Shown here in pieces: positions 30,314-64,000 of a stretch of 64,000 nt of DNA (within the stretch, counting starts at the first letter, position 1; every line of letters begins with the position of its first letter). The notes under the pieces are model-generated. The model did no database searches. It saw nothing but the letters and a program-made list of their open reading frames with translations, and had not been told where the DNA came from. The DNA comes from Chitinophagales bacterium (lineage in GTDB: Bacteria; Bacteroidota; Bacteroidia; Chitinophagales; Chitinophagaceae): NCBI GenBank assembly GCA_015655015.1, contig JAATFV010000236.1:1-64000 (forward strand), in the 5' to 3' direction. The translations under genes were made by a program, and so were the position numbers.

Positions 30314-30330
30314 CCACTACAATATTTGTT

Positions 30331-34424: not shown

Positions 34425-34453
34425 CTATTGCCGGAATCCGGCAGCGCCCGATT

Positions 34454-34489
34454 CTTGCAGAGGTCATGCAAAGAAGATGGTACCTTTGG
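34454..34489 (+). promoter_or_regulatory. Promoter of the pseudouridine synthase gene
   Basis: TACCTTTGG (34481-34489) matches the -7 box TAnnTTTG, with CTTG at 34454-34457 as a -33 element 23 bp upstream, slightly wider than usual. A start near 34495 would leave a short leader before the ATG at 34512. Confidence 0.45.
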
Positions 34490-34511
34490 CTCTAAAACAG
34501 CACAGGGCAAT

Positions 34512-37981: not shown

Positions 37982-38045
37982 TATACCACGAAAATACTGG
38001 CATTTTTTTATTTTAACGGAACTCCATAAGGCCAAACTATTTTTT

Positions 38046-38076
38046 TTTGTCGTTTTCCCAACAATTAGTATGTTTG
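38046..38076 (+). promoter_or_regulatory. Consensus promoter of the mannose module
   Basis: TTTG (38046-38049), a 19-bp spacer and TATGTTTG (38069-38076) match the Bacteroidota housekeeping promoter exactly. The start should be near 38082, about 40-55 bases before the ROK-PMI start codons. Confidence 0.7.
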
Positions 38077-38135
38077 AACATTCGTACTTATTGTACAGAA
38101 AACGGAAAACCTCACTCCAAACTATGCTCAGACGT

Positions 38136-40892: not shown

Positions 40893-40913
40893 ACAGCTAA
40901 AAAACGATTGCTT

Positions 40914-42317
40914 ATGCCTGACGGGCAAACAACTTTGCATAAAAAATATCTCTTCCTGGTCTGCTTCATCGCGGCCATGGGCGGATTCCTCTTCGGCTTT
41001 GATACGGCGGTGATCTCCGGCGCCCTGTCTTTCGTGGTAGCCGACTTTCATTTCGACGCCCTGATGGAAGGCTGGTTCGTCAGCTCCGCGTTGCTGGGCT
41101 GTATTATCGGCGTGGCCTTCAGCGGAAAGCTCAGCGACGTATACGGCCGGAAAAAAATCATGTTGCTTTCAGCCGGACTCTTCTTTCTGTCCGCCATCGG
41201 CTGCATGCTGGCCGGCAACGCGACGATCCTTATCGGGTTCCGGCTGATAGGAGGACTGGGCATCGGCGTGGCTTCGATGATCTGTCCCCTCTACATCTCC
41301 GAGTTCTCTCCCCCGGCATTCCGGGGAAGAATGGTAGCCCTCTATCAGCTGGCGATCACCATTGGTATCGTGGCCGCGTATTTCTCCAATGCTTACCTGT
41401 TACGGCTTTCAGGCAACGAATCTTTACAGGGCTGGCTGCATTTCCTCATCGTTCAGGATACCTGGCGCTCGATGATCGGCGTGGGGCTTGTGCCGAGTTT
41501 CATTTTCCTGGTTTGCCTCTTCATCGTTCCGGAATCGCCCCGCTGGCTCCTGCTGAAAGGAAAAGAGCAGCTGGCCTTTCAATACCTGGAGAAGCTCAAT
41601 TCCCAGGCCGTCGCCCGCGAAGAGATCCTGTATATTCAGAACTCTTTAAAACAAGACGCCGGCACGCTCGGACAGCTCTTTTCCAAAGCCTACCGTATTC
41701 CCCTGATCATCGGTCTGTCCCTGCCTTTTCTCTCGCAGGTATCCGGCATTAATGCCGTCATCTATTATGGCCCGGCCATCCTGGATAAGGCAGGTTTTTC
41801 TCTCGGGGATGCCCTGGGAGGGCAGGTGATCATCGGTTTCGTCAACGTCCTGTTCACCTTCGTAGCGATCTTTACCGTAGACAAATGGGGGAGAAAGCCC
41901 TTGCTGTTCACCGGCATCGCCGGCGCTGTGATCTCCCTGGTGATCATCGGGATCCTGTTCCGGTCGGACAACGTACAAGGTCCCTGGGTATTGATCTTTA
42001 TCCTGCTCTTCATTGCCTGTTTTGCCTTTTCTTTCGGCCCTGTTTGCTGGATCGTCGTCAGCGAGATCTTCCCGGGCGCTGTCAGAGGACAGGCCATGTC
42101 CCTGGCAACCTTATCGCTGTGGATAGCTAACTTCTTCGTGGGACAGCTGACGCCGATGATGCTCAAGAGTCCGCACTGGGGGCCTTCTGCAACCTTCTGG
42201 ACTTTCGCGGCTCTTTGTGCACCGGGATTCTGGCTTACCTGGAAGCTGATCCCCGAGACAAAAGGAAGATCCCTTGAACAGATCGAACAGGCCTGGAGAA
42301 AGGCAAAGGATATTTAA
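40914..42317 (+). CDS. MFS sugar porter (proton/sugar symporter)
   Basis: The ATG at 40914 gives 467 residues with 12 predicted helices. Sugar-porter signatures are all present: GFDTAVISGAL in helix 1, DVYGRKK, RLIGGLGIGVASMICPLYISEFSP, PESPRWLL, DKWGRKPLL and the final PETKGRSLE. The family moves hexoses or pentoses across the inner membrane with protons. It lies 21 bp after the ROK-PMI fusion and before a mannosidase, so mannose is the likely cargo (inference). Confidence 0.92.
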   Translation: MPDGQTTLHKKYLFLVCFIAAMGGFLFGFDTAVISGALSFVVADFHFDALMEGWFVSSALLGCIIGVAFSGKLSDVYGRKKIMLLSAGLFFLSAIGCMLAGNATILIGFRLIGGLGIGVASMICPLYISEFSPPAFRGRMVALYQLAITIGIVAAYFSNAYLLRLSGNESLQGWLHFLIVQDTWRSMIGVGLVPSFIFLVCLFIVPESPRWLLLKGKEQLAFQYLEKLNSQAVAREEILYIQNSLKQDAGTLGQLFSKAYRIPLIIGLSLPFLSQVSGINAVIYYGPAILDKAGFSLGDALGGQVIIGFVNVLFTFVAIFTVDKWGRKPLLFTGIAGAVISLVIIGILFRSDNVQGPWVLIFILLFIACFAFSFGPVCWIVVSEIFPGAVRGQAMSLATLSLWIANFFVGQLTPMMLKSPHWGPSATFWTFAALCAPGFWLTWKLIPETKGRSLEQIEQAWRKAKDI

Positions 42318-42387
42318 TAAAGGAGAGCTAAATAATCCAGGCGGGAAAATGTAAAATAAAAAGACCTGGTCGTCAAAATAAATCCTC

Positions 42388-48950: not shown

Positions 48951-49553
48951 ATGAGAAGTAACAGTGATTATATCAGTGACGGGCTTTTTATGCAGATAGC
49001 AGATGGAGATGAAAATGCTTTCCGGGAAGTATTTCATTCCTTCAACCAACGCCTGTTCCCTTATGTTCTCAATATCGTTAAATCCAGCGCTGTAACGGAA
49101 GAGATCGTGCAGGAGGTATTTCTTAAATTATGGACAAACAGGCAAGCTGTAGCAGAAATGGATAATCCTGTTGCATGGCTCTTCACCGTAGCAGCCAATC
49201 AGTCTTTTACCTACCTTAAAAGAATTTCTACAGAACAGCGCATCATAGATAAGATCAAACAATCGATGCGCACGTCGGAAAATCCTACGGACGAGTATAT
49301 ATTTTTTAACGAGAGTAAAATTATCTTGCAAAAAGTGGTAGGCGAACTTCCTGCACAGCGCCAGGTTATTTACAAATTAAGCCGTGAGGAGGGATTAAAC
49401 AACCAGCAGATAGCAGACCAATTGAATCTTTCCCCCAACACTGTTAAAAATCAACTAGTTAGTGCACTCAGAACCATCCGCGAACAATTGCAGAAAACAG
49501 CCGGCGCTCTTTTCCTTTTCCTTCTTTATTTATCGTTCTTGATTCATCCATAA
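48951..49553 (+). CDS. ECF RNA polymerase sigma factor
   Basis: The 200-residue protein has region 2 (ENAFREVFHSFNQRLFPYV, EIVQEVFLKLWTNR) and region 4 (LPAQRQVIYKLSREEGLNNQQIADQLNLSPNTVKNQL read as helices). A hydrophobic tail (GALFLFLLYLSFLIH) closes the protein, as in many Bacteroidota ECF factors paired with FecR. FecR follows after 114 bp and SusC after that. It probably drives the susC operon when released. A promoter lies about 260 bp upstream. Confidence 0.92.
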   Translation: MRSNSDYISDGLFMQIADGDENAFREVFHSFNQRLFPYVLNIVKSSAVTEEIVQEVFLKLWTNRQAVAEMDNPVAWLFTVAANQSFTYLKRISTEQRIIDKIKQSMRTSENPTDEYIFFNESKIILQKVVGELPAQRQVIYKLSREEGLNNQQIADQLNLSPNTVKNQLVSALRTIREQLQKTAGALFLFLLYLSFLIHP

Positions 49554-49667: not shown

Positions 49668-50864
49668 ATGATTCAAGATCAACGCATTCAATACCTGATT
49701 GAGCGGTATTATAACAATATTGCATCCAATGAGGAGACGGAAGAATTATTCGCGTTGCTGCGCCATGGGGATAAGGATGGAGCCATTCTATCCCTATTAG
49801 AGAAGATATCTGATCATACCGGGCAGCAAAAAGAGGGGTATGATCCGGAGTATTGGGACCCTATGATACAGACTATCCTGGAGCAGAATAAATTTCAGAT
49901 GGCTGAGAAAGGCGCCGCCAGATCTTTATTTACCTGGAAAAAATGGGTTGCAGCAGCGTCCATTCTGCTTATTGCAGGCGCCGCCGGGTATTGGCTGGTT
50001 TTACGACATGCGGTAAAAGCACCTGATGCCGGCATGCTGGTGCAAACGACGGGAGGGTATGATGTGAGACCCGGCGCCAATGGCGCCATACTTACACTGG
50101 CAACAGGTGATAAAGTCGTGCTGAATGGTGCGGACAACAAGGTGCTGCCACAGCAGGGGACCAGTAAACTGACAGACCGCGATGGACAGATTCTGTATCA
50201 TCAGGAGGGAAAGACTACCGAAGAAATGATATACAACACCATGTCGACGCCCATGGGCAGGCAATACCAGTTAGTGCTGGCTGATGGCAGCAAGGTGTGG
50301 CTTAACGCCGGATCATCCATCCGATACCCTGTTAGTTTCTCCGGGATAGAGAGAAGGGTAGCGATTACCGGTGAGGCCTATTTCGAAGTAGCAAAAAATG
50401 CCGGAATGCCCTTCAAAGTGCAGATCAGTGACAAGGCGGAAGTAGAAGTGTTGGGAACACATTTTAACATCAATGCCTACACCGATGAAGCCAGCATTAA
50501 TACCACGCTGCTGGAAGGCTCTGTTCGAATAAAGGCTTTTGATAAAATGCAGCTGCTGGCGCCTGGCGAACAGGTGCAGATGCAGGGACAAAATATCCGG
50601 CTTGTAAAAAATGCGGATATACAACAGGCGGTTGCCTGGAAAGATGGTTTGTTCTCATTTACCGACGCCTCTCTTGAAACAGTGATGAGGCAGTTGAGCC
50701 GATGGTATAATGTAGAAGTGGAATATGCAGGTCCTGTTCCGGCAAGAAAGTTTAACGGAGAGATTGGCAGAACACTTACGTTGTCGCAGGTGCTGAAAGG
50801 GCTCACAAAAGCGCATGTTAAATATAAAATTGAGAACGGTAGCAAAATCACCATTCTGCCTTAG
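49668..50864 (+). CDS. FecR-family anti-sigma factor
   Basis: The 398-residue protein has an N-terminal anti-sigma region (about 1-85), one membrane segment (WVAAASILLIAGAAGYWLVL, about 90-110) and a periplasmic FecR domain (YQLVLADGSKVWLNAGSSIRYPVSF, GEAYFEVAKNAGMPFKV, VEVLGTHFNINAY). The C-terminal DUF4974 part (FSFTDASLETVMRQLSRWY) should meet the STN domain of the downstream SusC. The 183-bp gap to susC holds the sequence signs of an antisense RNA. Confidence 0.92.
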   Translation: MIQDQRIQYLIERYYNNIASNEETEELFALLRHGDKDGAILSLLEKISDHTGQQKEGYDPEYWDPMIQTILEQNKFQMAEKGAARSLFTWKKWVAAASILLIAGAAGYWLVLRHAVKAPDAGMLVQTTGGYDVRPGANGAILTLATGDKVVLNGADNKVLPQQGTSKLTDRDGQILYHQEGKTTEEMIYNTMSTPMGRQYQLVLADGSKVWLNAGSSIRYPVSFSGIERRVAITGEAYFEVAKNAGMPFKVQISDKAEVEVLGTHFNINAYTDEASINTTLLEGSVRIKAFDKMQLLAPGEQVQMQGQNIRLVKNADIQQAVAWKDGLFSFTDASLETVMRQLSRWYNVEVEYAGPVPARKFNGEIGRTLTLSQVLKGLTKAHVKYKIENGSKITILP

Positions 50865-50930: not shown

Positions 50931-51035
50931 TAAAAGAAAAAACCGGGGTGCAAAGATTGGCGTCCTGTCCCCGGTTGTTAATAAGGTAATTCATGTAAAC
51001 AAGTATGTAATAACTGCTTATTTATTTACCCTAAA
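50931..51035 (-). ncRNA. Predicted antisense small RNA between fecR and susC
   Basis: On the minus strand TACTTTTGC (51048-51040) matches the -7 box, so a transcript could start near 51035. About 60 bases on, AACCGGGG and CCCCGGTT (50976-50969 and 50948-50941) form a perfect 8-bp stem, followed by TTTTCTTTTA. This is a clear intrinsic terminator on the minus strand only. The RNA would be about 105 bases, antisense to the leader of the SusC message. DonS-type RNAs that repress polysaccharide loci in Bacteroides lie in the same place between anti-sigma gene and susC. No -33 box is visible. Confidence 0.5.
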
Positions 51036-51047
51036 CACTGCAAAAGT

Positions 51048-54000
51048 ATGCAAATTAAGTTGCCCGGTATGGCATCGGGGGGAATTATTTTTTACCCCCC
51101 ATCCAAAATTTTGTTCGTCATGAAACTTACGACTATTCTGATCATGGCAGCCGTTATGCAGGTGAGCGCAAAAAGCACAGCGCAAACGGTTACCTTATCG
51201 GCCAAATCAGTCCCGCTGCAGGAAGTTTTTTCCGTTATAAGAAAGCAGACCGGGTATGTTTTTTTCTACGATAAGGGTGAGCTGACAGGTACAAATCCTG
51301 TCTCCGTTGATCTGAAAGACGTGCCGCTCCAGGATGCGTTGAATAAGGTGTTATCCGGCCAACCCCTGAGTTATGATATACAGGGCAACACTATTTTTAT
51401 TGTCAAAGTGGAGAAAGCACCCCTGGTGGACAAACCTGTTATGGATCTACCCCCGCCTGTACAGATCAAAGGCCGTGTGGTAGATGATAGCAGCGGCGCC
51501 CCGATAACCGATGTTTCCGTTATCGTGAAAGGAACCAAAGTAGGCGTTAATACCAACCGCGAGGGGGAGTTCTCTTTTTCCTATAACGGAACCGGTAAAA
51601 TTGTGCTCCTTGTAAGCCATGTTGGATACGCGGAAAAGCAGATAGAAGTACAACAGGGCGTTTATGTCACCATTCGCCTTAATATGGCCGATCAAAAGCT
51701 GGCCAATGTGGAGATATCTACAGGGATGTTCAAACGGAAGGAGGAGAGGTTTAGCGGAGCAACCGCAACGTACAGCGGTGAAGACCTCAGACGAGTCGGA
51801 AATCAGAATATCATCCAAAGTCTTAAAGCGCTCGACCCGTCTTTCATCGTCATCGAAAATAATGCAAAGGGATCTAATCCAACCAGCCTGCCCACCATTG
51901 AACTAAGGGGTAAGTCCAGCATCACGACAACTCAACTGAACGATCAGTTCGCATTGGATCCCAACCAGCCGCTCTTCGTTCTGAACGGCTTTGAAACCAC
52001 GTTGGATAAGATAGTCAATTTGGACATCAACCGGGTGGCATCTATCACCATTTTAAAGGACGCTGCTTCGACGGCAATTTACGGTTCCCGGGCAGCCAAT
52101 GGGGTTATCGTCGTTGAAACGCTGGAGCCCGTGCCGGGAAAGTTGCGCCTGCAATATACAGCCGGCAGCAATGTGAACATCCCCGATCTCCGTAGTTACA
52201 ACATGATGAATGCTTCTGAAAAACTTGAATTTGAGCGATTGGCAGGTTTATATGAACCTCGCTATTCCCTGGGATACGAGTTGCAGGAATTGTACAACAG
52301 ACGGCTTGCCGAAGTTAAACGAGGGGTTAATACCTATTGGCTAAGTATACCGGTCCGTACAGCCATCAGCGATAACCATGACCTGTATGTGCAAGGGGGA
52401 AATGAAGAGTTCACCTATGGGATCCAGGGCACAGTTCGTACTGAGCGTGGGGTCATGAAAGGTTCTGAAAATAAGACCTGGGGCGGATCCATAGATCTGA
52501 CATACCGTCATGAAAAAATAAATATAAGTAACTCACTCTATATAGACGGCAAAAATTCCAGCGAATCGCCCTATGGCAGCTTTTCAACATTTGTAGCTGC
52601 CAACCCTTATTACCGGAAGTCCGATGGCTCGGGTGCGATCCCGGTGAATCTGGATACGGTTCTGGTGCCCGGGCTTTATACAACGTCATACACGTATGTT
52701 GCCAACCCACTGTACGATGCTTCCTTAAATAATATAAATAAGACAAAAGGCCTTGCTTTACAAAACTCGCTCAGGGCTAATTTGGACATTTTATCCTATT
52801 TACGCCTAACCGGGTCCTTGCAATTGAAGACGTCCAGCAATACGCAAGTCATTTTTACTCCTCCTGAAAATACAGCCTTCCAAACAACCAGCTATTTGCT
52901 AAAAGGTACATACAGCAGTACAACTACAGAGTTACACGGGTACGACTTTAACATAGGCCTTAACTTTCACCGCACAGTCGGCGCTCATTCGATAACATCC
53001 GATGTTCGCGGACGTCTTGCTGAGGATGTTAACCGCTCCAATGGTTATTCGGCTACTGGTTTTCCTTATGGCACGAATGGCAACCCCTCTTATGCCTATA
53101 GCTATACACCTAACGCTGTACCATCATCCGCGAGCCTGATAAAAAGAAACACCAGTCTCATATCCAATTTGAATTATGGATTCGATAGACGTTACTTTTT
53201 CGATGCTACCTATAGTCTGGATGGCTCTTCCAATTTCGGTTCCAACCGGATTTTTAAGCCATTTTGGTCGGTGGGGGCAGGATGGAATATTCACCAGGAG
53301 GCCTGGTTCAATGTACCCTGGCTTTCTGTACTGCGCTTAAAAGCAAATAGAGGGGTTGCAGGCAATCAGGCATTGGGGCAGTCGACTTCCAACTCCATCT
53401 ATCAGTACATCACCAGCAGCAATATTTTTGGGCAAAGCCTTCAGCGGTCTTCGTTGGGAAACCCGAATCTGGCTTGGCAAACCACCTCCATGAATAGTTT
53501 TGAAGGGTCATTTAGCCTGTGGCATGGCCGCCTGGATGGACGTGCCAATTATTATGTGCATTTGACGGACCCCATGCTGATCAATATCACCGAAATCTTT
53601 CCCTCTTCGGTAGGTATAAGTTCCTCCTATCCTGTCAACCTGGGCAAATTAACCACAAAAGGGTGGGAAGGCACCCTGACAATCGTCCCCTTTGTAAAAG
53701 CAGACAAAGGGATGAAGTGGACCCTATCGATAAACGGGACATTTGGCACTCGTAGCGTATATGGTAACTTTGGCAGTTCACTGGATGCACTTAACAAAGA
53801 ACAAGTAAGCTCTAATGGCTTGATTCGATATCGTGATGGGTATAGCCCCGACGACATTTGGGCGGTTGTATCCAGGGGCATCGATCCGGCCACCGGTAAA
53901 GAAATCTTTCAGAAGGCGGACGGCACTGAAACGTTCGTTTATAATACAGATGATATTGTACGCGTAGGCAACTCCCGCCCGAAAGTAAAAGGTAGTATTG

Positions 54001-54446
54001 CGAACTCCTTTACTTATAAAAAATTCTCTGTTTATATAAATGCAGGATATACCTTAGGAGCCTATACGTTTAATAGTACCCTATACAACAAAGTCGAAAA
54101 CATCAGCGAATCGGAATTGACAAAAAACCAGGACCGGCGGGCACTGTACGGCCGTTGGAAAAAACCGGGTGATATCGCACAGTTTCGGGGCATACAATTG
54201 GCTGCAGATGGAATAACGCCTATAACGAGCCGCTTCATTCAAAAGGACAATCATATTGAATTTAGCAGCATTTCCTTCTTTTGGCGGACAGATAGTCCGG
54301 CCTGGCTAAAAGGGGCCAACGTCAGTTCCTTTTCGGTATCGGTGCAACTCAATGATGTCCTTCGATATGGGAGTATTCTATATGAAAGGGGAACCGAATA
54401 CCCGTTTCAACGGACTGGTACTATTACACTTAACCTCTTCTTTTAA
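51048..54446 (+). CDS. SusC/RagA TonB-linked outer-membrane protein with STN domain
   Basis: The first ATG (51048) gives 1132 residues; an alternative ATG at 51120 begins directly at the signal peptide (MKLTTILIMAAVMQVSAKSTAQ). The STN domain (about 45-125, LQEVFSVIRKQTGYVFFYD) is followed by a carboxypeptidase-like domain (IKGRVVDDSSGAPITDVSV) and a plug with ELRGKSSITT, LFVLNGFETTLDKI and LKDAASTAIYGSRAANG. The barrel ends TITLNLFF. The SusC plug signatures are a little divergent, as in non-glycan SusC groups. It heads a tight run of seven genes that encode no carbohydrate enzyme, so the cargo may be a peptide, metal complex or other small molecule. Confidence 0.92.
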   Translation: MQIKLPGMASGGIIFYPPSKILFVMKLTTILIMAAVMQVSAKSTAQTVTLSAKSVPLQEVFSVIRKQTGYVFFYDKGELTGTNPVSVDLKDVPLQDALNKVLSGQPLSYDIQGNTIFIVKVEKAPLVDKPVMDLPPPVQIKGRVVDDSSGAPITDVSVIVKGTKVGVNTNREGEFSFSYNGTGKIVLLVSHVGYAEKQIEVQQGVYVTIRLNMADQKLANVEISTGMFKRKEERFSGATATYSGEDLRRVGNQNIIQSLKALDPSFIVIENNAKGSNPTSLPTIELRGKSSITTTQLNDQFALDPNQPLFVLNGFETTLDKIVNLDINRVASITILKDAASTAIYGSRAANGVIVVETLEPVPGKLRLQYTAGSNVNIPDLRSYNMMNASEKLEFERLAGLYEPRYSLGYELQELYNRRLAEVKRGVNTYWLSIPVRTAISDNHDLYVQGGNEEFTYGIQGTVRTERGVMKGSENKTWGGSIDLTYRHEKINISNSLYIDGKNSSESPYGSFSTFVAANPYYRKSDGSGAIPVNLDTVLVPGLYTTSYTYVANPLYDASLNNINKTKGLALQNSLRANLDILSYLRLTGSLQLKTSSNTQVIFTPPENTAFQTTSYLLKGTYSSTTTELHGYDFNIGLNFHRTVGAHSITSDVRGRLAEDVNRSNGYSATGFPYGTNGNPSYAYSYTPNAVPSSASLIKRNTSLISNLNYGFDRRYFFDATYSLDGSSNFGSNRIFKPFWSVGAGWNIHQEAWFNVPWLSVLRLKANRGVAGNQALGQSTSNSIYQYITSSNIFGQSLQRSSLGNPNLAWQTTSMNSFEGSFSLWHGRLDGRANYYVHLTDPMLINITEIFPSSVGISSSYPVNLGKLTTKGWEGTLTIVPFVKADKGMKWTLSINGTFGTRSVYGNFGSSLDALNKEQVSSNGLIRYRDGYSPDDIWAVVSRGIDPATGKEIFQKADGTETFVYNTDDIVRVGNSRPKVKGSIANSFTYKKFSVYINAGYTLGAYTFNSTLYNKVENISESELTKNQDRRALYGRWKKPGDIAQFRGIQLAADGITPITSRFIQKDNHIEFSSISFFWRTDSPAWLKGANVSSFSVSVQLNDVLRYGSILYERGTEYPFQRTGTITLNLFF

Positions 54447-54456
54447 TTGGCATACC

Positions 54457-55887
54457 ATGAAATTGTATGAAATAGTAATGCGCAGCAGGATATTTTGGAT
54501 TATACTTTGTTTCATCGGCTTATCGGGGTGCAAAAAATACCTTACCCTCAAGCCGGAAGATTCATATACGGATCAGCAGGTATTCAGATCCGAAGCGGCT
54601 ATTCAGCAGACGCTTAACGGCATATACACGGAACTTTGTGACAATGATCTTTATGGATTTCAATTAACCCAATATGCGTTGGAATACCTGGGGCAGCAAT
54701 ATGTAGTGTCCACTTTGTCTAAAGGCCTTCTAACGCAGCTTTATAGTTATGACTTTACCGGAGCAGAAACTGCGGCCCTATTCAATGCGACCTGGACCAA
54801 GGCGTATCAAATCATATCAGAGTTGAATAGCTTCATAAAAAGTCTTAACGCCTACAGCGGCGCCACCCTCACTCAGGAGCATAAGCGCCTGATGCTTGGT
54901 GAGGCAATCGCTATCCGCGCCTTCATTCATTTCGACCTTCTTCGCATATTTGGTCCTGTTTATTCAGTGGATCCGGGCCAGACGTCTATTCCTTACTATC
55001 AAAAACTGACCGATGCGTCGCAGCCTATTCTCCCGGCCAATGAGGCGCTTGGCCTGGTTGTTGCTGATTTTCGGACTGCACTGGACTCGCTAAAAAACGA
55101 CCCGGTTATTACGAAGGGTATTATTATTTCGGAGAATACCGACTTTTATAGCAGCTATCGCAACCGCAGGATGAACTATTATGCGGTCAAGGGACTTCTC
55201 GCGCGAGCCTTGCTCTACGGGGGGCAGAACGAAGAGGCAAATACCCTGGCGAAAGAGGTACTTAATGATGGAGAAAAATGGTTCAATTGGTTGCCCTATA
55301 CGGCAATCATCAGCGCCGGAACAAATCCTGACAGAATCTTCTCGCCGGAGGTGATCTTTGGTATTGATAACCGTAAAATGTATGATAATTTCCAGGCCTA
55401 CTTCACAACGAATACGACAACTCCTGCAAGGGCCGACGAAGACAGGTTGGAGTATACATTCGAATACAATACCAATGACTACCGATACCTGGCAACCTGG
55501 ATATACAATACTCAAAACTGGCGCACCTTCTCCAAATTTGCAGATGTCTCCGATGCGACAGCTACCTGGAGGTACTTTCAGCCATTGTTGAGAAAAAGTG
55601 AGCTTTATTACATCATCGCTGAAACGGAAAGTGACCCGGACATGGCCCTGAAATATCTTAATGCAGTCCGCGAAAATCGCGGGTTGACAGACCTGGACAA
55701 CAGCGCGGATATACCCGGAGAAATTGCTAAAGAATACCAGAAGGAGTTTTTCGGGGAGGGACAATTGTTTTTTTACTACAAACGGTTGAATTTTCCTTAT
55801 TTCCCGGATGGCAGTGATGTTTGGAATGACATATGGGAGCCGTATTATGTGGTTCCCCTGCCACAATCAGAAACAAAATTGCGATAA
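54457..55887 (+). CDS. SusD/RagB-type surface lipoprotein
   Basis: The ATG at 54457 gives 476 residues; the 35 extra residues of the track ORF overlap SusC and are not credible. The lipobox is GLSGC (Cys near residue 23), followed by KKYLTLKPEDSYTDQQVFRSE, a pattern common in SusD proteins. TPR-like helices (EAIAIRAFIHFDLLRIFGPVYS) and the C-terminal EFFGEGQLFFYYKRL motif are also typical. It starts 10 bp after SusC and should cap that channel. Confidence 0.9.
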   Translation: MKLYEIVMRSRIFWIILCFIGLSGCKKYLTLKPEDSYTDQQVFRSEAAIQQTLNGIYTELCDNDLYGFQLTQYALEYLGQQYVVSTLSKGLLTQLYSYDFTGAETAALFNATWTKAYQIISELNSFIKSLNAYSGATLTQEHKRLMLGEAIAIRAFIHFDLLRIFGPVYSVDPGQTSIPYYQKLTDASQPILPANEALGLVVADFRTALDSLKNDPVITKGIIISENTDFYSSYRNRRMNYYAVKGLLARALLYGGQNEEANTLAKEVLNDGEKWFNWLPYTAIISAGTNPDRIFSPEVIFGIDNRKMYDNFQAYFTTNTTTPARADEDRLEYTFEYNTNDYRYLATWIYNTQNWRTFSKFADVSDATATWRYFQPLLRKSELYYIIAETESDPDMALKYLNAVRENRGLTDLDNSADIPGEIAKEYQKEFFGEGQLFFYYKRLNFPYFPDGSDVWNDIWEPYYVVPLPQSETKLR

Positions 55888-55903
55888 ACCAGCACTTATA
55901 ATT

Positions 55904-56689
55904 ATGAAAATACAACACTACGTCGGCTGCTTTTTGCTGGTCTCCAGCCTCCTTTATGCTTGTAGGAAAAAAGACCTGCTTACTTATAATACCTCTAATA
56001 GCATCTACTTTTTAATATCGGGCGCGAGCCCTGTTGATCTGGACGGAAAGACCCTCACTACTATCCCTTCAGATGAAGAATTCCTTTCCTTCGGTTGGAA
56101 AGCTGATGACATCGATACGTTGGAAACCAGGATCCCGGTTCGGGTGACCGGCAGTCCTGGTGTTAGTGAACGGCACTTCCGCATCATCGCCGGGGAGGGC
56201 AGCACGGCTGAGTCCGGCAAACATTATGAAGCTTTTCCTGATTCTTACGTGTTCCCTGCGGGCGCTATCGATGATACGATAACGGTTCGCTTGTATCGAA
56301 CAGCGGACATGCAGGTGACGGCAAAGTGGTTGTATTTACAACTGGTAGCAACCCCGGATTTTTCGGTGAACTTCCAGGTCAATACGGCGTATACCAGGAC
56401 CGACGACACTGCTTATTTCAATCCATCGGTTTTCAGAATTAAAATCGATGATATCGTAAGTGTTCCCAAGTATTGGTACACTTCCCTCTTTGGGAAGTTC
56501 TCTAAAACAAAAATTCTGCTTATGGTCTCTGTATTGAATATCAGCGTCGATGATTTTAACGACTACATGAAGATGTCTTCGAGCGGTTCGGTTTACGCTG
56601 ACATCGTATCAAAATATCTGGCAGAACAGAAATTTATTGGCAATACGATCTACGATGAAGATGGATCAGAAATGTCAATGGGTCAGTAA
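55904..56689 (+). CDS. DUF4843 lipoprotein
   Basis: The ATG at 55904 gives 261 residues with the lipobox LLYAC. The family pattern is seen in NSIYFLISGA, DTLETRIPVRVTGSPG (a strand with RVTG), and GKHYEAFPDSYVFPAGAIDDTI. DUF4843 proteins sit next to SusD and PKD-like lipoproteins and probably join the outer-membrane complex; their role is not known. It lies 16 bp after SusD. The last part contains a DDFNDYMKMSSSG helix region. Confidence 0.83.
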   Translation: MKIQHYVGCFLLVSSLLYACRKKDLLTYNTSNSIYFLISGASPVDLDGKTLTTIPSDEEFLSFGWKADDIDTLETRIPVRVTGSPGVSERHFRIIAGEGSTAESGKHYEAFPDSYVFPAGAIDDTITVRLYRTADMQVTAKWLYLQLVATPDFSVNFQVNTAYTRTDDTAYFNPSVFRIKIDDIVSVPKYWYTSLFGKFSKTKILLMVSVLNISVDDFNDYMKMSSSGSVYADIVSKYLAEQKFIGNTIYDEDGSEMSMGQ

Positions 56690-56711
56690 ACCGATAAAAA
56701 TTGCAATCAAC

Positions 56712-58214
56712 ATGAAAAAACATATTTATCACTGTCTTATCTTTTTTTGCATGGTTCTTGTGTCCTGCTCAAAGGATTTAGGCCACTACAACTATAACCA
56801 AATAAATGAGGTCAGCATCAGTCTCAGTAACGCTCCCTCTTCTGTATTCCTTGGCGATACACTGCGCGTGTCCCCCGAACTAACGGAAACCATAAATAGC
56901 AATTTGCAGAATTATAGCTTTCGGTGGGCGCTTAATACGGGCGAAGATTTGTCGACGGAACAAAATTTGAACTATAAAGTGACACAGTCCCCCGGAAATT
57001 ACGAATTGGAGTTTTACCTTACGGACAAGACGACAGGGGTCACCTGGCAGCAGCGCGAGGCACTTCTTATAAACACCTCTATATATGAAGGGTATTTGAT
57101 CTTGAATGAAGTGAACGGCAGTTCACGATTGGATATGCTCAGTTACCGGGATGGGGGATTTGTACAATACACGGACGTGCTGGGACAGGTTGGATCGGAA
57201 CTAAAGCTCACAGGCGCCCCTATCAAGGTTGCCAGCCTGCGCAACGGCGGGAATAAGAAGGATAACGCTAATTACAATATCTATATTTTAACAGACCAGT
57301 TAGCGACCCGTATCAGTCCTGAAACCTTTGGATGGACGTCTCAATTGGAGCTTCGTAACCGTTTTCTGGGCAGCGTACCGACCGATTTCCGACCGAAAAA
57401 CTTATTTGTATCCGAGATGGACAATTTTCCTTTTTTTGGCGTCCTGGTCGATGGAAAGTTTATCTATGCCAATCTCTATTCCCCTTTTGTATATTCGCTG
57501 TACGCTAACTATTATCCTGATGACCCCGCCAGTGTGATTCCAATCGCTAACAAGGCCGCTATGGTAGGGGAAAGTATTACTGTCTACGATACGGTCAAAA
57601 GGGTATTCATGAGTTATTCCAATAAGACGTTTCAGCCTATCAACAGTGCCGTCTACTCCTATCCGGAGGGAAAAATATTGGTAGACCTGTTCAATAACAA
57701 CTATTCCTTCGACTCCGATGCCAACGGTTACAGAAAGTCAATTGCCTATGCGATATTGAAAGACCCATCCACGGGTGTATATAGTTTGCTCAGATTCTAC
57801 ATCGGGCAGGAAACCAATTATTACGAGACGATTAATGCCACGGATTTTGATCAGGCTACGTGTTTTGCAGCAAGTCCTGAACTGAGTTACCTGTTCTATG
57901 CGGTAGGCGGTAAGGTCTATGAATATGATATGTCGCTAAAGACAGCCAAGCTGATGCTGGATATGGGAGAAGAGCGGGTTAGTTTATTATCCTTTGTGCC
58001 GTTCTACCAGAACATGGACGGCTCCTCCAATCAAAACTATTCCGATTGGGGAAAATGGTTGACAGTGGGAACGTATAATCCTTCAAAGCCGGAGGGCAGC
58101 AACGGGTCGTTGAGGACCTACCAGGTGCCGCCGGTCAATCAGCCATTGGTTAAAAAACAAGAATGGACAGGATTTGGAAAAATTGTAAGTGTCTCTTACA
58201 GGGAAAGAAGTTAA
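56712..58214 (+). CDS. PKD-like family lipoprotein
   Basis: The ATG at 56712 gives 500 residues with lipobox LVSC. CSKDLGHYNYNQINEV is the standard opening of the PKD-like lipoproteins found after SusD and DUF4843. A PKD-like beta-sandwich (about 25-145, SFRWALNTGEDLS and QSPGNYELEFYLTDK) is followed by a domain with beta-propeller-like strands (EGYLILNEVNGSSRLDML, FYAVGGKVYEYDM). It is likely on the cell surface as an accessory binding protein. It is 22 bp after the DUF4843 gene. Confidence 0.82.
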   Translation: MKKHIYHCLIFFCMVLVSCSKDLGHYNYNQINEVSISLSNAPSSVFLGDTLRVSPELTETINSNLQNYSFRWALNTGEDLSTEQNLNYKVTQSPGNYELEFYLTDKTTGVTWQQREALLINTSIYEGYLILNEVNGSSRLDMLSYRDGGFVQYTDVLGQVGSELKLTGAPIKVASLRNGGNKKDNANYNIYILTDQLATRISPETFGWTSQLELRNRFLGSVPTDFRPKNLFVSEMDNFPFFGVLVDGKFIYANLYSPFVYSLYANYYPDDPASVIPIANKAAMVGESITVYDTVKRVFMSYSNKTFQPINSAVYSYPEGKILVDLFNNNYSFDSDANGYRKSIAYAILKDPSTGVYSLLRFYIGQETNYYETINATDFDQATCFAASPELSYLFYAVGGKVYEYDMSLKTAKLMLDMGEERVSLLSFVPFYQNMDGSSNQNYSDWGKWLTVGTYNPSKPEGSNGSLRTYQVPPVNQPLVKKQEWTGFGKIVSVSYRERS

Positions 58215-58239
58215 TTTAACAACATTCAATTTTATTTGT

Positions 58240-59304
58240 ATGAAAATAGTCAGCACGTTAGTCTTTGTTTTTATATTTCATTTTATTCCGGCAGCCCAGG
58301 AAAGGGACACTTACACCATTACAGGTAAAGTAGAATGCGACTCGCCGCGTAACCTTCTGGCAGAGTTGTCCTATCATGTAAAAGGAGTGATGGTCGCCGA
58401 CACCGCCCACATCGTCAACAATCGTTATTATTTTAAGGGTCGGATAAAAGGGCCCTTTTTGCAAGCGGTGCTCAGGCTGATTAATTTAGATGACAAGAAA
58501 GCGGATTATGCCGGAAATATGGACTATAGTACATGGAGGTTCCTGGTATTCATCCTGGAGCCAAGTGACATCACCGTCACACACGCCGGTACGGTTGGTC
58601 AGGAAAAGAACCTGGTTGAAGGATCCAGAGCAAATGATGAGCAAGGTATCCTCATCCGCGAGATACAGGAAAAACACCGGCCGGTAGATGAAGTTTACAT
58701 TGAATTTATAAAAGACCATCCGGCATCCTGGCAGAGCGTGGACCTTTTGCAACAGCTAACCACTCAATTTGATATCAGCGAGACCGTCATGGACAGTTTA
58801 TTCGATGGCTTGGCTGCTAAATTGAAAGCGGCGCCATCTATTGCACTTTTAAAAAAATTGGTTGCCCGGAACGAGCTGCTGAAAATCGGAAAGCCTGCAC
58901 CTGATTTCAGCCAGCAGGATGTAAATAAGAGTCCGGTCAAATTAAGCAACCTTCGCGGTAAGTACGTGCTGATCGACTTCTGGGCAAGTTGGTGCGGGCC
59001 CTGCCGTGCTGAAAACCCTAACCTGGTAAAGGCCTATCAGAGCTATCACAATAAAGGTCTTGAAATACTTGGCATATCGCTGGACGAAGAAAGCAGCAAA
59101 GCTGCCTGGTTGGAAGCTATCCGGACCGATAAGCTGACCTGGAAACAGGTTTCCGACCTGAAAGGAACCGGTAATGAAGCCGCCATTCTTTATAATGTAT
59201 TTACGATCCCATCTAATTTTCTCATCGACCCGAATGGGATTATCGTTGGAAAAAATTTACGCGGGGAGCAGCTGGAACAAAAATTAATGGAAGTATTGCA
59301 CTAA
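58240..59304 (+). CDS. TlpA-family thiol:disulfide oxidoreductase with DUF4369-like N-domain
   Basis: The ATG at 58240 gives 354 residues with a signal peptide (STLVFVFIFHFIPAAQ). An N-terminal beta-rich DUF4369-like domain (about 25-130, TITGKVECDSPRNLLAEL) leads to a thioredoxin domain. WASWCGPCRAENP holds Cys252 and Cys255, and TIPSNFLIDPNG holds the cis-proline. It reduces disulfides in the periplasm. It lies 25 bp after the PKD-like gene and 9 bp before the ABC ATPase, so a role in handling a thiol- or disulfide-containing cargo, for example a cysteine-rich peptide, is inferred. Confidence 0.88.
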   Translation: MKIVSTLVFVFIFHFIPAAQERDTYTITGKVECDSPRNLLAELSYHVKGVMVADTAHIVNNRYYFKGRIKGPFLQAVLRLINLDDKKADYAGNMDYSTWRFLVFILEPSDITVTHAGTVGQEKNLVEGSRANDEQGILIREIQEKHRPVDEVYIEFIKDHPASWQSVDLLQQLTTQFDISETVMDSLFDGLAAKLKAAPSIALLKKLVARNELLKIGKPAPDFSQQDVNKSPVKLSNLRGKYVLIDFWASWCGPCRAENPNLVKAYQSYHNKGLEILGISLDEESSKAAWLEAIRTDKLTWKQVSDLKGTGNEAAILYNVFTIPSNFLIDPNGIIVGKNLRGEQLEQKLMEVLH

Positions 59305-59313
59305 AAGAATGAT

Positions 59314-60234
59314 ATGGCAACATCTCTTAAGCTGGTAAACTTGTCGCACCGTTATAGTACAAGTTGGGCCATTCGTGACATCAATTTTGAAATCGACAGT
59401 AATGGCGTTGTTGGTCTTCTGGGGTCGAATGGCGCCGGGAAATCCACCACGATGAACATCATGTGCGGCGTACTTAGCCAAACCTCCGGAGAAGTTTATA
59501 TCAATGGGATTGATATACGCAAAGACCCGAATGCCGCCAAAAAATATATAGGGTTTCTGCCACAGACCGCGCCGCTGTATGCAGATCTCACCGTTGATGA
59601 GTATTTGACATTCTGTGCTTATATGCGGCTTATGGACAAAGCCAGCGTGGCAAAGGCTGTATCGGAAGCCAAGGACCTTTGCGGGATCGGCCAGCATAGC
59701 AAGCGCCTCATTGGCAACCTGTCCGGGGGATACCGCCAGCGGGTCGGTATCGCCCAGGCGATCATTCACCATCCAAAATTGGTCGTTATGGATGAGCCGA
59801 CCAATGGGCTGGACCCCAACCAGATCATCGAAGTACGCAATCTGATTAAGGATATAGCGCAGGACAGGGTGGTTATCTTTTCTTCACACGTACTCAGCGA
59901 AGTTCAGTTGATATGCAAGGAAATCAAGATGATTGAAAGCGGCCGGCTCGTCTTTTCGGACACCATCGAGTCATTTAACAGTTACATTCAACCCAATAGT
60001 GTACAGTTGCTGCTGGGCAACCCTCCCGCCGAAGCGGATCTGTTAGCATTACCCGGTATCACCAGGGTGGAATTTCTGACTTCTCACCGCATACGTGTTT
60101 TCAACGACGGCGATCTGCCGCTCACGGAGCAGCTGGTAGAACATAGTATAACGTATGGTTGGAGGCTTCAGGAAATTTTCCCCGAGAAGAGCTCGATGAA
60201 TGAAGTATTCGCCCAATTATCTCAAAAAAGTTAA
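59314..60234 (+). CDS. ABC transporter ATP-binding protein, GldA-like
   Basis: The 306-residue protein has all ABC motifs: Walker A LLGSNGAGKSTT with Lys43, the NLSGGYRQRVGIAQAI signature, Walker B LVVMDEPTNGLDP, and the H-loop in SSHVLSE. The last about 90 residues form the extra C-terminal part found in GldA and related exporters. Its partner is the GldF-GldG-like permease 6 bp downstream. In gliding bacteria GldA acts with GldF and GldG, but many non-gliding relatives have such transporters, so motility is not implied. Confidence 0.87.
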   Translation: MATSLKLVNLSHRYSTSWAIRDINFEIDSNGVVGLLGSNGAGKSTTMNIMCGVLSQTSGEVYINGIDIRKDPNAAKKYIGFLPQTAPLYADLTVDEYLTFCAYMRLMDKASVAKAVSEAKDLCGIGQHSKRLIGNLSGGYRQRVGIAQAIIHHPKLVVMDEPTNGLDPNQIIEVRNLIKDIAQDRVVIFSSHVLSEVQLICKEIKMIESGRLVFSDTIESFNSYIQPNSVQLLLGNPPAEADLLALPGITRVEFLTSHRIRVFNDGDLPLTEQLVEHSITYGWRLQEIFPEKSSMNEVFAQLSQKS

Positions 60235-60240
60235 CCCTTC

Positions 60241-62520
60241 ATGCAAACGATAAAAAAAATTGCCGGAGTAGAATTATATCAGCTCTTTTATTCCCCTATC
60301 GGATGGATACTTATTGCTATTTTAACGATTCAGTGTGGGATTACTTATCATAATTACATAGATGATACGGTAATCATGCAGGACCTTCATTACGAACTTC
60401 CGCCCCTGACTTCTTGGATATTAGGCAGCAGTCAAGGCGCTTTCAATCAGATCGTGCTGAAACTTTTTCTCTTTTTACCGTTGATTACCATGGGCCTTCT
60501 GAGCCGGGAAATCAATTCAGGAACGATCAAGTTGCTGTATTCTTCCCCAATCAGCATACGATCCATCGTACTTGGCAAGTTTCTTGCCATGATGGTCTAT
60601 AACCTGATTTTATTAGCCGTGATTTCTTCGTTGGCTGTCGTGGCGGTTATCCATATACAATCGGCGGATGTTGGCATGTTATTGTCCGGTTTGCTTGGAA
60701 TATACCTGCTGCTTTGCGCTTACTCGGCAATCGGCCTGTTCATGTCCAGCCTCACTTCCTATCAGGTCGTTGCCGCAATTTGTACAATTTCTGTACTGGC
60801 TGTCCTATCTTATATCGGTAGTGTTTGGCAAGACATCGATTTTGTACGTGATCTTACGTATTTCCTGTCCATTTCCGGAAGGACGGAGAAGCTGATCAGC
60901 GGTTTGATAAGCACAAAAGACGTATTTTATTTTATACTGATCATTCTGTTGTTTTTAACCTATACGGTATTCCACCTGTGGACCAAGCGAAAGACCTCTT
61001 CCTGGTTGTTCCGGTTTAACTGGTACGTTATTATTATGGCCGGTACATTGGCGCTGGGCTACCTGAGCTCCAGACCCAGGTTTACTTTTTACTATGACGC
61101 CACGGCAGTAAAGGCGCATACCATTTCGAAAATTAATCAGCAATTGCTGGCCAATACCGGCGATCAGGAATTGAAAGTGACCAACTTCGTAAACCTGCTG
61201 AATGATACCTACGTAAGTGGACAGCCCCGGCAGCGCAATAACGACCTCAGCCGTTGGGAACAATATATCCGGTTTAAAAGCAATACCACGGTGGATTATG
61301 TATACTATTATGATAAGAATATAGTCGGGTCTCATCGGGCAGACAGCCTCAGGGAGATGGCCCAATCCGCTGCACGGTCTTTTCGGACAATTCTTAGCCG
61401 GTTTAAAAGTCCCGATGAGGTCAATGAGATAGATGAATTACGTGAGGAGGGCGACCGTTATGTATCGCGATTAAGCCTGGGTAACAAACACACCTATCTT
61501 CGCTTGTTCGGCGACATGCTGGTATACCCTTCCGAGCGGGAAGTCGGGGCGGCCGTCAAAAGGCTCATTGTCCCCGTACCCGTTGTTGCTTTTTTACAAA
61601 GTGAGCATGAGCGTGCTATTTCGAAATCAGGAGACCGGGACTACAAGCTTACTACGCGTCAACTCAACTATCGCTACGCGCTGATCAACCAGGGCTTTGA
61701 CGTGATCACCGTAGACCCGGGTAGTCCGATACCCGACTCATTGACTACGCTATTCATTGGAGATCCCAGGGTGCCGTTTGCTCCCGGGGCGCTCGCCAAT
61801 ATCCAGTCATACATAGACCGGGGAGGCAACCTGGTGATTGCCGGTGAACCGGACAAACAGGAAATCCTTAACCCGCTCCTGAAATCATTGGGTATCTCGC
61901 TGGAATCAGGCACGGTCGTTCAACCGCATGCTAATCATGCACCTTCATTGATCCTTGCCAGGGTTACCGGACAAGCCGGCAGATACAATCATCAATGGAA
62001 CGATCTCAACCAGCAGAAATCCATTGTAAGTATGCCTGGCGCCGCTGCCCTGTCTTATTCGGATTCGGGGTCATTTACCATTACCCCCTTGCTATATACA
62101 GGGGATTCACTTAGCTGGAATAAAAAGGGACCGTTCTCGATCGACTCTATCCAGATAGCTTTTGATCCTGATAAGGGGGACATTAAGGGACCGCTGGTAA
62201 CTGCGGTACTTGCTGAAAGAACCGTGCGGGGGAAGGCGCAACACATAATTGTAACAGGAGATGCCGATCTGTTCAGTAACACGGAGATAACGAGGAAAAA
62301 TATGGCAACGGAGAACCAGGCGTTTGTTTTATCGCTATTCTATTGGTTATCCGATGGAAAGTTTCCCTTAGATATCGTGACGCCGAAAAACCCGGACATG
62401 CTCCTTAAGTTTACGGAAGACGCAAAAATCAACAAACTTAAAATGGTACAGTTGGGCATCCTGCCGGGCGCCGTGGTGATTTTTAGCACGATCCTGTTGA
62501 TCAGGCGGCGGCGGAAATAA
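60241..62520 (+). CDS. Single-chain GldF-GldG-type ABC permease/auxiliary protein
   Basis: The 759-residue protein joins two normally separate subunits. Residues 1-about 240 form an ABC-2 permease with six membrane helices (GWILIAILTIQCGITY to FYFILIILLFLTY; helices contain INSGTIKLLYSSPIS). A further helix (WYVIIMAGTLALGYL, about 258-273) opens a large periplasmic GldG-like part (ABC_transp_aux type) with IRFKSNTTVDYVYYYDK, INQGFDVITVD, LFIGDPRVPF and NIQSYIDRGGNLVIAGEPD. A final helix and RRRRK tail end it. With the GldA-like ATPase it makes a complete transporter. It is the last gene of the operon; the cargo is unknown. Confidence 0.85.
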   Translation: MQTIKKIAGVELYQLFYSPIGWILIAILTIQCGITYHNYIDDTVIMQDLHYELPPLTSWILGSSQGAFNQIVLKLFLFLPLITMGLLSREINSGTIKLLYSSPISIRSIVLGKFLAMMVYNLILLAVISSLAVVAVIHIQSADVGMLLSGLLGIYLLLCAYSAIGLFMSSLTSYQVVAAICTISVLAVLSYIGSVWQDIDFVRDLTYFLSISGRTEKLISGLISTKDVFYFILIILLFLTYTVFHLWTKRKTSSWLFRFNWYVIIMAGTLALGYLSSRPRFTFYYDATAVKAHTISKINQQLLANTGDQELKVTNFVNLLNDTYVSGQPRQRNNDLSRWEQYIRFKSNTTVDYVYYYDKNIVGSHRADSLREMAQSAARSFRTILSRFKSPDEVNEIDELREEGDRYVSRLSLGNKHTYLRLFGDMLVYPSEREVGAAVKRLIVPVPVVAFLQSEHERAISKSGDRDYKLTTRQLNYRYALINQGFDVITVDPGSPIPDSLTTLFIGDPRVPFAPGALANIQSYIDRGGNLVIAGEPDKQEILNPLLKSLGISLESGTVVQPHANHAPSLILARVTGQAGRYNHQWNDLNQQKSIVSMPGAAALSYSDSGSFTITPLLYTGDSLSWNKKGPFSIDSIQIAFDPDKGDIKGPLVTAVLAERTVRGKAQHIIVTGDADLFSNTEITRKNMATENQAFVLSLFYWLSDGKFPLDIVTPKNPDMLLKFTEDAKINKLKMVQLGILPGAVVIFSTILLIRRRRK

Positions 62521-62659: not shown

Positions 62660-63568
62660 ATGGCGGAAGAGATCATCGATATAACATCCATCAGCCGACT
62701 GCACGAACTCAATGGATTTGACAAACCTACGCATCCGCTGATCAGCATCATCGACCTGTCCAAATGGGATATCAGCAAGGCCCTGTTAGGGTCAAAAGTG
62801 ACCCTGGATCTGTATGCCATCGCGATGAAGGATGCCAGCTGCGGATTGGCATATGGCAGGAACTCTTATGACTTTAACGAGGGGGTGCTTATTTTTACTG
62901 CTCCCCACCAGGTATTGACCGTCACTAAGGAACAAAAGTTGGGGGAGGTGCACGGCTGGATGATATTTTTTCATCCGGATCTTATCCGGAATACGGCACT
63001 GGGTAAGGAGATCGATGCGTATCATTTTTTCTCTTACGATATCCATGAGGCGCTGCACCTGTCCGATGCCGAACAGCAGTCTGTCACCGAATGTGTCAAG
63101 CTGATCCAGTCGGAGATCGGCGCGCGGATCGACAACCATAGCCAGCGGGTGATCGTATATACCCTGGAGCTGCTGTTGAACTATTGTTCCCGATACTATG
63201 AGCGGCAGTTCCTGACAAGAGCCGCAGGCAACAAGGATATCGTCAGCCGGTTTGAAAGTCTGTTGAAAGATTATTATAAAGACGGGAAATTCAGCGAAAC
63301 GGGAACGCCGCCCATCGGCTACTTTGCCGAACAAGTCCGCCTCTCCCCCAATTACCTGCGCGACCTGTTAAAGAAGGAGACAGGATTGAGTCCCAAGGAC
63401 CATATCAACAATTTTATCGTAGAAAAGGCTAAGACGCTGTTGCTGGGTTCGGAAGACTCCGTATCGGAGATCGCCTATAGCCTGGGTTTCAATTATCCGC
63501 ACTACTTCAGCCGGCTGTTCAAAACGAGAACCGGTCTGACTCCCCAGCAATATCGGGGAACGAACTAA
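62660..63568 (+). CDS. AraC-family transcriptional regulator
   Basis: The 302-residue protein has an N-terminal cupin-like sensor part (about 1-170, with NEGVLIFTAPHQVL and GWMIFFHPDLI) and a C-terminal HTH pair (about 200-300, VRLSPNYLRDLLKKETGLSP and SEIAYSLGFNYPHYFSRLFK). It lies 24 bp before a short-chain dehydrogenase on the same strand and probably regulates it. A 21-bp direct repeat sits just upstream. Confidence 0.9.
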   Translation: MAEEIIDITSISRLHELNGFDKPTHPLISIIDLSKWDISKALLGSKVTLDLYAIAMKDASCGLAYGRNSYDFNEGVLIFTAPHQVLTVTKEQKLGEVHGWMIFFHPDLIRNTALGKEIDAYHFFSYDIHEALHLSDAEQQSVTECVKLIQSEIGARIDNHSQRVIVYTLELLLNYCSRYYERQFLTRAAGNKDIVSRFESLLKDYYKDGKFSETGTPPIGYFAEQVRLSPNYLRDLLKKETGLSPKDHINNFIVEKAKTLLLGSEDSVSEIAYSLGFNYPHYFSRLFKTRTGLTPQQYRGTN

Positions 63569-63592
63569 TCAAGGCATTTAAAACATAATACA

Positions 63593-64000
63593 ATGAGTAA
63601 TACGATTTTAATCACGGGATCAAGCACCGGCATCGGTCGGGCAACCGTCAGGAAATTTCAGCAGGAAGGTTGGAATGTTATCGCTACGATGCGGAATCCG
63701 GAAAAGGAAACCGAATTGAACAAGCTGGAGCGTGTATTGGTAACGAAATTGGATGTACAGCAGCTGGATTCCATCGACAGCGCGATCAAGGCGGGACTGG
63801 ACGTTTTCGGAAAGATCGATGTGGTGCTTAATAATGCCGGTTATGGGCTGATGGGGACCTTCGAGTCTACGAAACGGGAAAGTGTCAACCGGCAGTTCGG
63901 TGTGAATGTTTTTGGGCTTTTTGATGTCACCAGAGCGATGCTTCCGCATTTCAGGGCGAACAAAAGCGGCTTGTTTATCAACATTACTTCTATCGGCGGT
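63593..64000 (+). CDS. Short-chain dehydrogenase/reductase, 5' part
   Basis: The frame opens ILITGSSTGIGRATV (Rossmann motif), has NNAGYG near residue 80, and runs off the window after 136 codons, before the Tyr-x3-Lys motif. It resembles the SDR at 35564, down to EGWNVIATMRNPEKE-like text against GWNVAATMRRPEEE. Both lie beside a transcription regulator, but of different families. Confidence 0.85.
   Translation, partial: MSNTILITGSSTGIGRATVRKFQQEGWNVIATMRNPEKETELNKLERVLVTKLDVQQLDSIDSAIKAGLDVFGKIDVVLNNAGYGLMGTFESTKRESVNRQFGVNVFGLFDVTRAMLPHFRANKSGLFINITSIGG

Follow-up and report, generated by a model that had tools for sequence, protein, structure and literature searches.

SusCD systems are mainly viewed as importers of glycans that hand their cargo over to unlinked inner-membrane transporters, and we know of no dedicated ATP-binding cassette (ABC) module in RagAB or in the glycan Sus operons. 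Here we describe an operon in which the two are joined. It lies in a 64,000-nucleotide stretch of DNA from a Chitinophagales bacterium (assembly GCA_015655015.1, contig JAATFV010000236.1, positions 1 to 64,000; hereafter the window), and it carries genes for a SusC/SusD pair, two further lipoproteins, a TlpA-like oxidoreductase, an ABC ATPase related to GldA and a fused permease related to GldF and GldG (GldFG). An earlier note on this DNA had taken the operon for a possible thiol-linked transport system, in which a compound containing disulfides or a bound metal would be imported, reduced in the periplasm and passed on by the ABC transporter. The operon and the linkage in that reading held in our analysis; its definition by a thiol step was not supported. 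The linkage of SusCD and ABC genes is real and general and marks a widespread operon type of Bacteroidota, here named Sus-Gld. We put at about one half the probability that the locus is a Sus-Gld copy in which SusCD imports a peptide or protein and is accompanied by a generic exporter-type ABC module.

All nine genes, from the extracytoplasmic function (ECF) sigma factor to GldFG, were located by domain searches on the plus strand between 48951 and 62520 (Table 1). The gene set, the order and the short gaps described before from SusC on (6 to 25 base pairs, bp) were confirmed by these searches and by corrected starts: the gaps are 10 bp between SusC and SusD, 16 between SusD and DUF4843, 22 between DUF4843 and PKD_2, 25 between PKD_2 and TlpA, 9 between TlpA and GldA and 6 between GldA and GldFG. 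Open reading frames (ORFs) were simply taken at their longest extent, and Table 1 gives corrected starts for SusC, SusD, DUF4843, PKD_2 and TlpA; the longest SusC frame opens at 51048, and the likelier ATG, 24 codons downstream, opens a normal signal peptide. The searches found no carbohydrate-active enzyme between the sigma factor and the end of GldFG and, as had been claimed, no glycosidase or peptidase within the operon. SusC passed both family cut-offs (454 bits against 368.25 for TIGR04056, and 55.2 against 46.2 for TIGR04057, the SusC signature), and a SusD-family lipoprotein follows directly 3' of it. By these sequence features the locus is a SusCD importer, with putative TonB-dependent import.

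The joining of SusCD to the ABC genes in one operon, proposed before for the window, recurs in relatives. In the same genome there are some 30 full-length GldFG paralogues (37-49% identity), about 28 of which stand in the order sigma-FecR-SusC-SusD-[slot A]-GldA-GldFG-[slot B]; sigma or FecR is missing from some of these operons where the contig starts late, and the remaining paralogues are cut by contig ends. Among 138 GldFG genes read, not all of them independent since some loci overlap (L072 and L080, for instance, represent one operon), SusD lies upstream in a same-strand chain in 127 and GldA in 130. The remaining loci are cut by contig ends, contain masked or broken ORFs, or belong to two special cases: L135, whose order is rearranged so that the ABC genes sit between sigma and FecR, still inside the module, and L071, a very divergent gliding-type gldFG and the one clear exception to the linkage. 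A scan of GTDB genomes gave at least 78 named loci with SusCD next to the ABC genes wherever the flank was long enough, in genera including Chitinophaga, Pedobacter, Mucilaginibacter, Sphingobacterium, Puia, Niastella, Butyricimonas, Sanguibacteroides, Gillisia and Salegentibacter. The ABC clade is thus found with SusCD wherever its flanks are readable, which favours the linkage. The exact order of the window is seen again in L108 from Chitinophaga tropicalis; L089 from Pedobacter BAL39 shares it but has two TlpA genes. The distribution in the phylum is patchy: 7 of 297 evenly drawn genomes, that of the window included, carried the operon at a strict threshold, and some relatives have many copies. 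Twenty control regions from this genome, each with a SusC gene picked by its high SusC score at the centre, contained no GldA, GldFG, MutS or M16 gene, and only one of them contained TlpA. We found no published account of this operon type in a search of the openly accessible literature (SusC with GldF/GldG, DUF4843, M16, MutS or protease-associated import).

Because the profile matches bear the names GldA and GldF, one might suppose that a gliding gldAFG operon had come to lie next to a Sus operon by chance. This is almost certainly wrong, since dozens of species have the arrangement and a single genome has about 28 copies of it. The GldF model match reached 90.2 bits against a curated cut-off of 288.5, and the GldA match (Table 1) is likewise far below its own; therefore the proteins of the window are homologues, not gliding proteins. 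The tree agrees with the cut-offs in ruling out a gliding identity, as the window GldFG does not group with the gliding-type copy L071, which is set apart by a very long end branch (10) and is the sole such outgroup in the tree.

The ATPase has intact motifs (Walker A GSNGAGKS, LSGGYRQR, Walker B DEPTNGLDP). The structural model of GldFG (predicted local distance difference test score 87.6, predicted template modelling score (pTM) 0.83) matches NosY and PmtC in its membrane part, and the N-terminal domain of IFT52 and OST48 in its periplasmic part; IFT52 was also found by sequence alone. An ABC-2 permease fold, intact ATPase motifs and no substrate-binding protein encoded in the operon are what characterizes ABC-2 (type V) exporters. 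The fold of the model thus places GldA/GldFG among exporter-type relatives, with putative outward transport. Uptake by the ABC transporter, as proposed for the step after reduction, appears doubtful because the permease folds like the exporters NosY and PmtC. The gallidermin-type match of the ATPase led us to look for lantibiotic or ribosomally synthesised and post-translationally modified peptide biosynthesis genes; none was recognised among the Pfam-scanned operon neighbours, and a linkage of this kind was rejected.

Two modules that can occur apart make up the window operon, SusCD-DUF4843-PKD(-protease)-TlpA on the one hand and GldA-GldFG on the other, because the SusCD-DUF4843-PKD-TlpA set is also present in operons that have no ABC genes (L166-L168). 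Over 86 operons, the correlation of distances was 0.956 between SusC and SusD and 0.845 between GldA and GldFG, and 0.31-0.36 across the modules; in 20 operons of the same genome, the cross-module correlation was 0.06-0.13, within the permutation range. The nearest SusC proteins to that of the window (44-46%) belong to L064, L089, L046 and L103, and the nearest GldFG proteins to other operons, L078, L079 and L044. We read these figures, with the caveat of distance saturation, as two loosely coupled modules, in which SusCD would set the specificity and the ABC part would be generic. Independent evolution is also expected if GldA/GldFG never touches the specific substrate and instead serves to assemble or maintain the SusCD/lipoprotein complex, as GldAFG may do for the gliding surface machinery. 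The periplasmic domain, with its fold of IFT52/GldG and OST48, is unlike a receptor for a transport substrate, and one copy per operon suggests a fixed partnership. However, the other sampled SusCD operons of this genome manage without ABC genes, and it would be unexplained why peptide-type SusCDs alone should need such a machine. We therefore regard an assembly role as rather unlikely.

On the importer side, the best-scoring solved structures for the window SusC are RagA, a peptide importer, and other SusC homologues. SusC has an N-terminal STN domain, which is typical of transporters signalling via FecR, and the ECF sigma factor, FecR and this transporter adjoin as in trans-envelope signalling of the FecIR type. 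In this genome there are 316 first-look SusC candidates, of which the best 56 by TIGR04056 score reach at least 812 bits, compared with 454 for the window SusC; SusCs linked to ABC genes may therefore form a divergent group of their own. The AlphaFold2 model of the PKD_2 lipoprotein (pTM 0.76) looks like an Ig-like domain followed by a propeller. A PDB sequence search with PKD_2 gave no match, and the nearest folds to the model in Foldseek were BT1487 (4r5o) and BtuG3 (8p97), at 12% identity. The model suggests a surface binding protein, the fold giving no indication of the ligand. The likeness to these two proteins could speak for uptake of a cobamide or another small molecule. This is very improbable, because the beta-propeller is a generic binding fold and the identity is low; besides, the structures closest to SusC are those of RagA and SusC homologues, not BtuB, and among the genes of the sister operons none was recognised as belonging to cobamide metabolism.

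The enzymes of the sister operons point to a peptide or protein, rather than a sugar, as the likely cargo. The substrate of the window itself can be approached through relatives only, because its operon holds no peptidase. In the relatives, slot A is either empty or occupied by DUF4843-PKD_2, TlpA, an unnamed protein (about 265 amino acids), an S8 protease (L095) or Met-zincins (L154). Slot B holds one or two MutS domain III+V proteins, M16, TlpA or another peptidase, namely S9 (L062), S41 (L124) or a trypsin-like protease (L155). Among the 138 loci, MutS genes were found in 67 (two of them in 50), M16 downstream in 36, DUF4843 in 21, PKD_2 in 17 and TlpA in 16. The HxxEH motif is present in 32 of 35 M16 peptidases. 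The enzymes of the control Sus operons of the same genome are glycosidases, sulfatases and similar. Five of the ten PKD_2 genes of this genome are in Sus-Gld operons; three others are those of L166-L168, which have TlpA without ABC genes, and L166, an operon of SusCD, DUF4843 and PKD, also carries a Met-zincin.

The MutS domain III+V proteins (about 440 amino acids) have an intact Walker A motif (GANMAGKS), and no mismatch-recognition domain was found in those of the Sus-Gld operons. About half of the Sus-Gld operons sampled carry a pair of them immediately 3' of GldFG, often with an overlap of 4 bp (L058:4114-6829, L082:12311-14913, L098:12439-15095 and others), and ten of the 14 MutS_V matches of this genome fall in such operons. 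A MutS domain V also occurs in a 600-amino-acid open frame (G000:C85:22798-23280) a few kb from the ABC-less L166 operon. In Pedobacter (L122, L128, L133, L141, L146), the order varies to SusCD-(265 amino acids)-GldA-GldFG-MutS-M16-second GldFG, and the second GldFG is followed by a protein of about 255 amino acids, which in the copies scanned is a fatty-acid hydroxylase.

TlpA begins like a protein with a signal peptide and has an intact active-site motif, and in the window, L089 and L108 it stands between the lipoproteins and the ABC genes. This position speaks for a route in which a disulfide-containing or metal-bound compound would be taken up, reduced by TlpA and carried across the inner membrane by the ABC transporter, an import role like the one proposed for FusD in ferredoxin piracy. 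The combination of TonB transporter, M16 and inner-membrane transporter in sister operons is also similar to that of the Fus and YddB-PqqL clusters (PMC6793856). Against this, TlpA is present in few of the related loci and is found in like operons without ABC genes; the operon has no gene for a substrate-binding protein, the permease has the fold of exporters, and we saw no gene for metal binding or a cofactor. Nothing indicated a disulfide or metal-bound ligand, and the sister-operon enzymes point to peptides or proteins. We thus consider this uptake route unlikely.

Putative control by the sigma/FecR pair together with a predicted antisense RNA, also proposed before, is supported; the terminator and the -7 box of this RNA recur in relatives. 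A terminator-like hairpin in the antisense direction was found in 84 of 99 related FecR-SusC gaps, compared with 4.1 in shuffles and three in the sense direction, and the -7 box in 65 of them, compared with 18.25 in shuffles, clustered at the start of the SusC ORF. Both-side changes occurred at eight of the nine pairs of the terminator stem (26 sequences), and the folding z-score of the RNA was -3.1. In Rfam at the gathering threshold only a tRNA was matched and the antisense RNA fell in no family; scans for sigma-70 promoters and terminators gave matches no commoner than in shuffles, such scans being uninformative for Bacteroidetes promoters. In Bacteroides, DonS and its kin are antisense RNAs of 78-128 nucleotides over susC (PMC7366714), and 32 of this kind are annotated in B. 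thetaiotaomicron (PMC10994844). Judged by its sequence signals, with a promoter and a terminator of its own and a short course antisense to the leader of susC, the predicted RNA looks like one of the same kind, here in an operon that lacks carbohydrate enzymes. The terminator loop AGGACGCCAATCTTT (50937-50985, minus strand) is nearly identical in several Chitinophagaceae operons (L082, L088, L099, L102, L125), which exceeds the conservation that a terminator needs.

For a peptide-importing Sus-Gld copy, the following mechanism can be proposed. SusC/SusD and the surface lipoproteins (DUF4843 and the PKD_2 propeller) would capture a large substrate, likeliest a peptide or small protein, which would be imported across the outer membrane with power from TonB. 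Occupancy of SusC could be signalled through the STN domain to FecR and on to the ECF sigma factor, which would switch the operon on, and the antisense RNA over the susC leader would hold it down. In the periplasm, TlpA may reduce disulfides or keep the substrate unfolded for proteolysis, the protease being supplied in cis by many sister operons. GldA/GldFG would move its substrate outward or use ATP to drive work in the periplasm, rather than import a nutrient; for example, it might clear membrane-active peptides from the inner membrane, or the GldG/IFT52-like domain might be worked against the cargo. A more ambitious version would make Sus-Gld a distinct class of envelope machine, built from peptide SusCD, exporter-type GldA/GldFG and, in about half of the sampled copies, one or two cytoplasmic MutS III+V ATPases, that feeds on peptides and pumps membrane-active ones back for proteolysis, with a MutS-like partner unrelated to mismatch repair. 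We think this quite unlikely.

Several points weigh against the peptide-import reading. Nothing in evidence sets the direction of the ABC transporter, and its exporter likeness is limited to the membrane part, with template modelling scores by target length of 0.5-0.63. The window GldFG is on a long branch (1.35, compared with a median of 0.33). The lack of a peptidase in the window operon itself is a further difficulty, as are GH88 and 3-keto-disaccharide hydrolase in or near single Sus-Gld relatives, and the likeness of the PKD_2 model to BtuG, which binds cobalamin, makes a small-molecule ligand possible. Co-transcription is suggested by the gene spacing, and an internal promoter is possible. 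The loci were chosen by GldFG similarity among the matches listed, and the accessory frequencies are those of a sample. Finally, the genome is assembled in 259 contigs (8.1 Mb) with an estimated contamination of 5.85%, and its copy numbers may shift slightly.

Table 1. Genes and predicted RNA elements of the Sus-Gld operon in the window.
Feature	Position	Strand	Evidence
ECF sigma factor, FecI-like (Sig70_bacteroi1)	48951..49553	+	TIGR02985 141.5 bits, cut-off 126.4
FecR-like anti-sigma factor	49668..50864	+	Pfam FecR + FecR_C
Predicted DonS-like cis-antisense RNA, ~105 nucleotides	50937..51041	-	GC-rich terminator (CCGGGG...CCCCGGTTTTTT)
-7 box TACTTTTG of predicted antisense RNA	51048-51041	-	Bacteroidetes -7 box TAnnTTTG
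SusC/RagA TonB-linked outer-membrane transporter, STN signalling domain	51120..54446	+	TIGR04056, TIGR04057, STN
SusD-like surface lipoprotein, lipobox LSGC	54457..55887	+	SusD-like_3 (PF14322), SusD_RagB (PF07980)
DUF4843 lipoprotein, lipobox LYAC	55904..56689	+	PF16132 58 bits
PKD_2 lipoprotein, Ig-like domain + probable beta-propeller, lipobox LVSC	56712..58214	+	PF16407 86 bits
Periplasmic TlpA/ResA-like thiol-disulfide oxidoreductase	58240..59304	+	DUF4369 + AhpC/TSA, WCGPC
ABC ATPase homologous to GldA, DrrA, LanF	59314..60234	+	TIGR03522 257.6 bits (below cut-off 402.6), next DrrA, gallidermin-type
Fused ABC-2 permease + GldG/IFT52-like periplasmic domain, C-terminal membrane anchor (GldFG)	60241..62520	+	PF12679 (ABC2_membrane_2), PF09822 (ABC_transp_aux)

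Downstream of the operon, an AraC regulator starts at 62660, 139 bp past GldFG, and is followed by a short-chain dehydrogenase/reductase (62660-64000); homologues of both also lie downstream of GldFG in L055, with the order swapped. Elsewhere in the window, a second sigma/FecR/SusC/SusD operon (25111-35126) is followed by an 830-amino-acid phosphoesterase with a propeller-like part and has no ABC genes. Two ORFs of 997 and 469 amino acids (37899-44778) are a probable third SusCD pair, judged by size and order alone; a GH92-family glycosidase (796 amino acids) and then a tRNA-Leu (CAG) at 44890 come after them.

The Sus-Gld operons represent a whole subclass of SusCD with its own ABC machine, with about 28 copies in one genome and members across Chitinophagaceae, Sphingobacteriaceae and other Bacteroidota. 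A non-gliding GldAFG family with a defined partner makes the role of a GldA-GldF-GldG-type complex testable outside gliding. At the same time, automated GldA/GldF/GldG and MutS labels in such genomes should be taken with caution, as they need not imply gliding or mismatch repair.

Compared with the known systems, the locus shares parts with several. With the DonS family it shares a minus-strand RNA over the susC leader, whose predicted 105 nucleotides fall within the range of 78-128 (PMC7366714), but the window RNA is known from sequence signals only, the operons lack carbohydrate enzymes, and the loop AGGACGCCAATCTTT is kept in a subset of Chitinophagaceae. Many sister operons have a TonB-dependent transporter, an M16 peptidase and an inner-membrane transporter as in Fus and YddB-PqqL (PMC6793856), whereas the barrel is SusC and not FusA, the ABC part is of the exporter-type GldA/GldFG, and the window copy lacks the M16 gene that marks a Fus-type cluster. 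SusCD, ECF sigma/FecR control and the predicted antisense RNA are also found in polysaccharide utilisation loci; unlike them, the window has no carbohydrate-active enzyme and the sister operons carry peptidases. The ATPase, permease and GldG domain are homologous to the gliding GldA-GldF-GldG of Flavobacterium, but they score below the curated cut-offs, form a separate SusCD-linked clade and have many copies per genome. ABC-2 systems of the NosDFY, PmtCD and LanFEG type are similar in permease fold (NosY, PmtC) and ATPase (DrrA, gallidermin), and differ in lacking the large GldG/IFT52-like periplasmic domain and the SusCD neighbours of GldFG. Finally, the SusC above its family cut-off, the SusD and surface lipoproteins, the TonB-type barrel and RagA as best structure match RagAB of Porphyromonas gingivalis and other SusCD complexes, to which the window operon adds a dedicated exporter-type ABC module.

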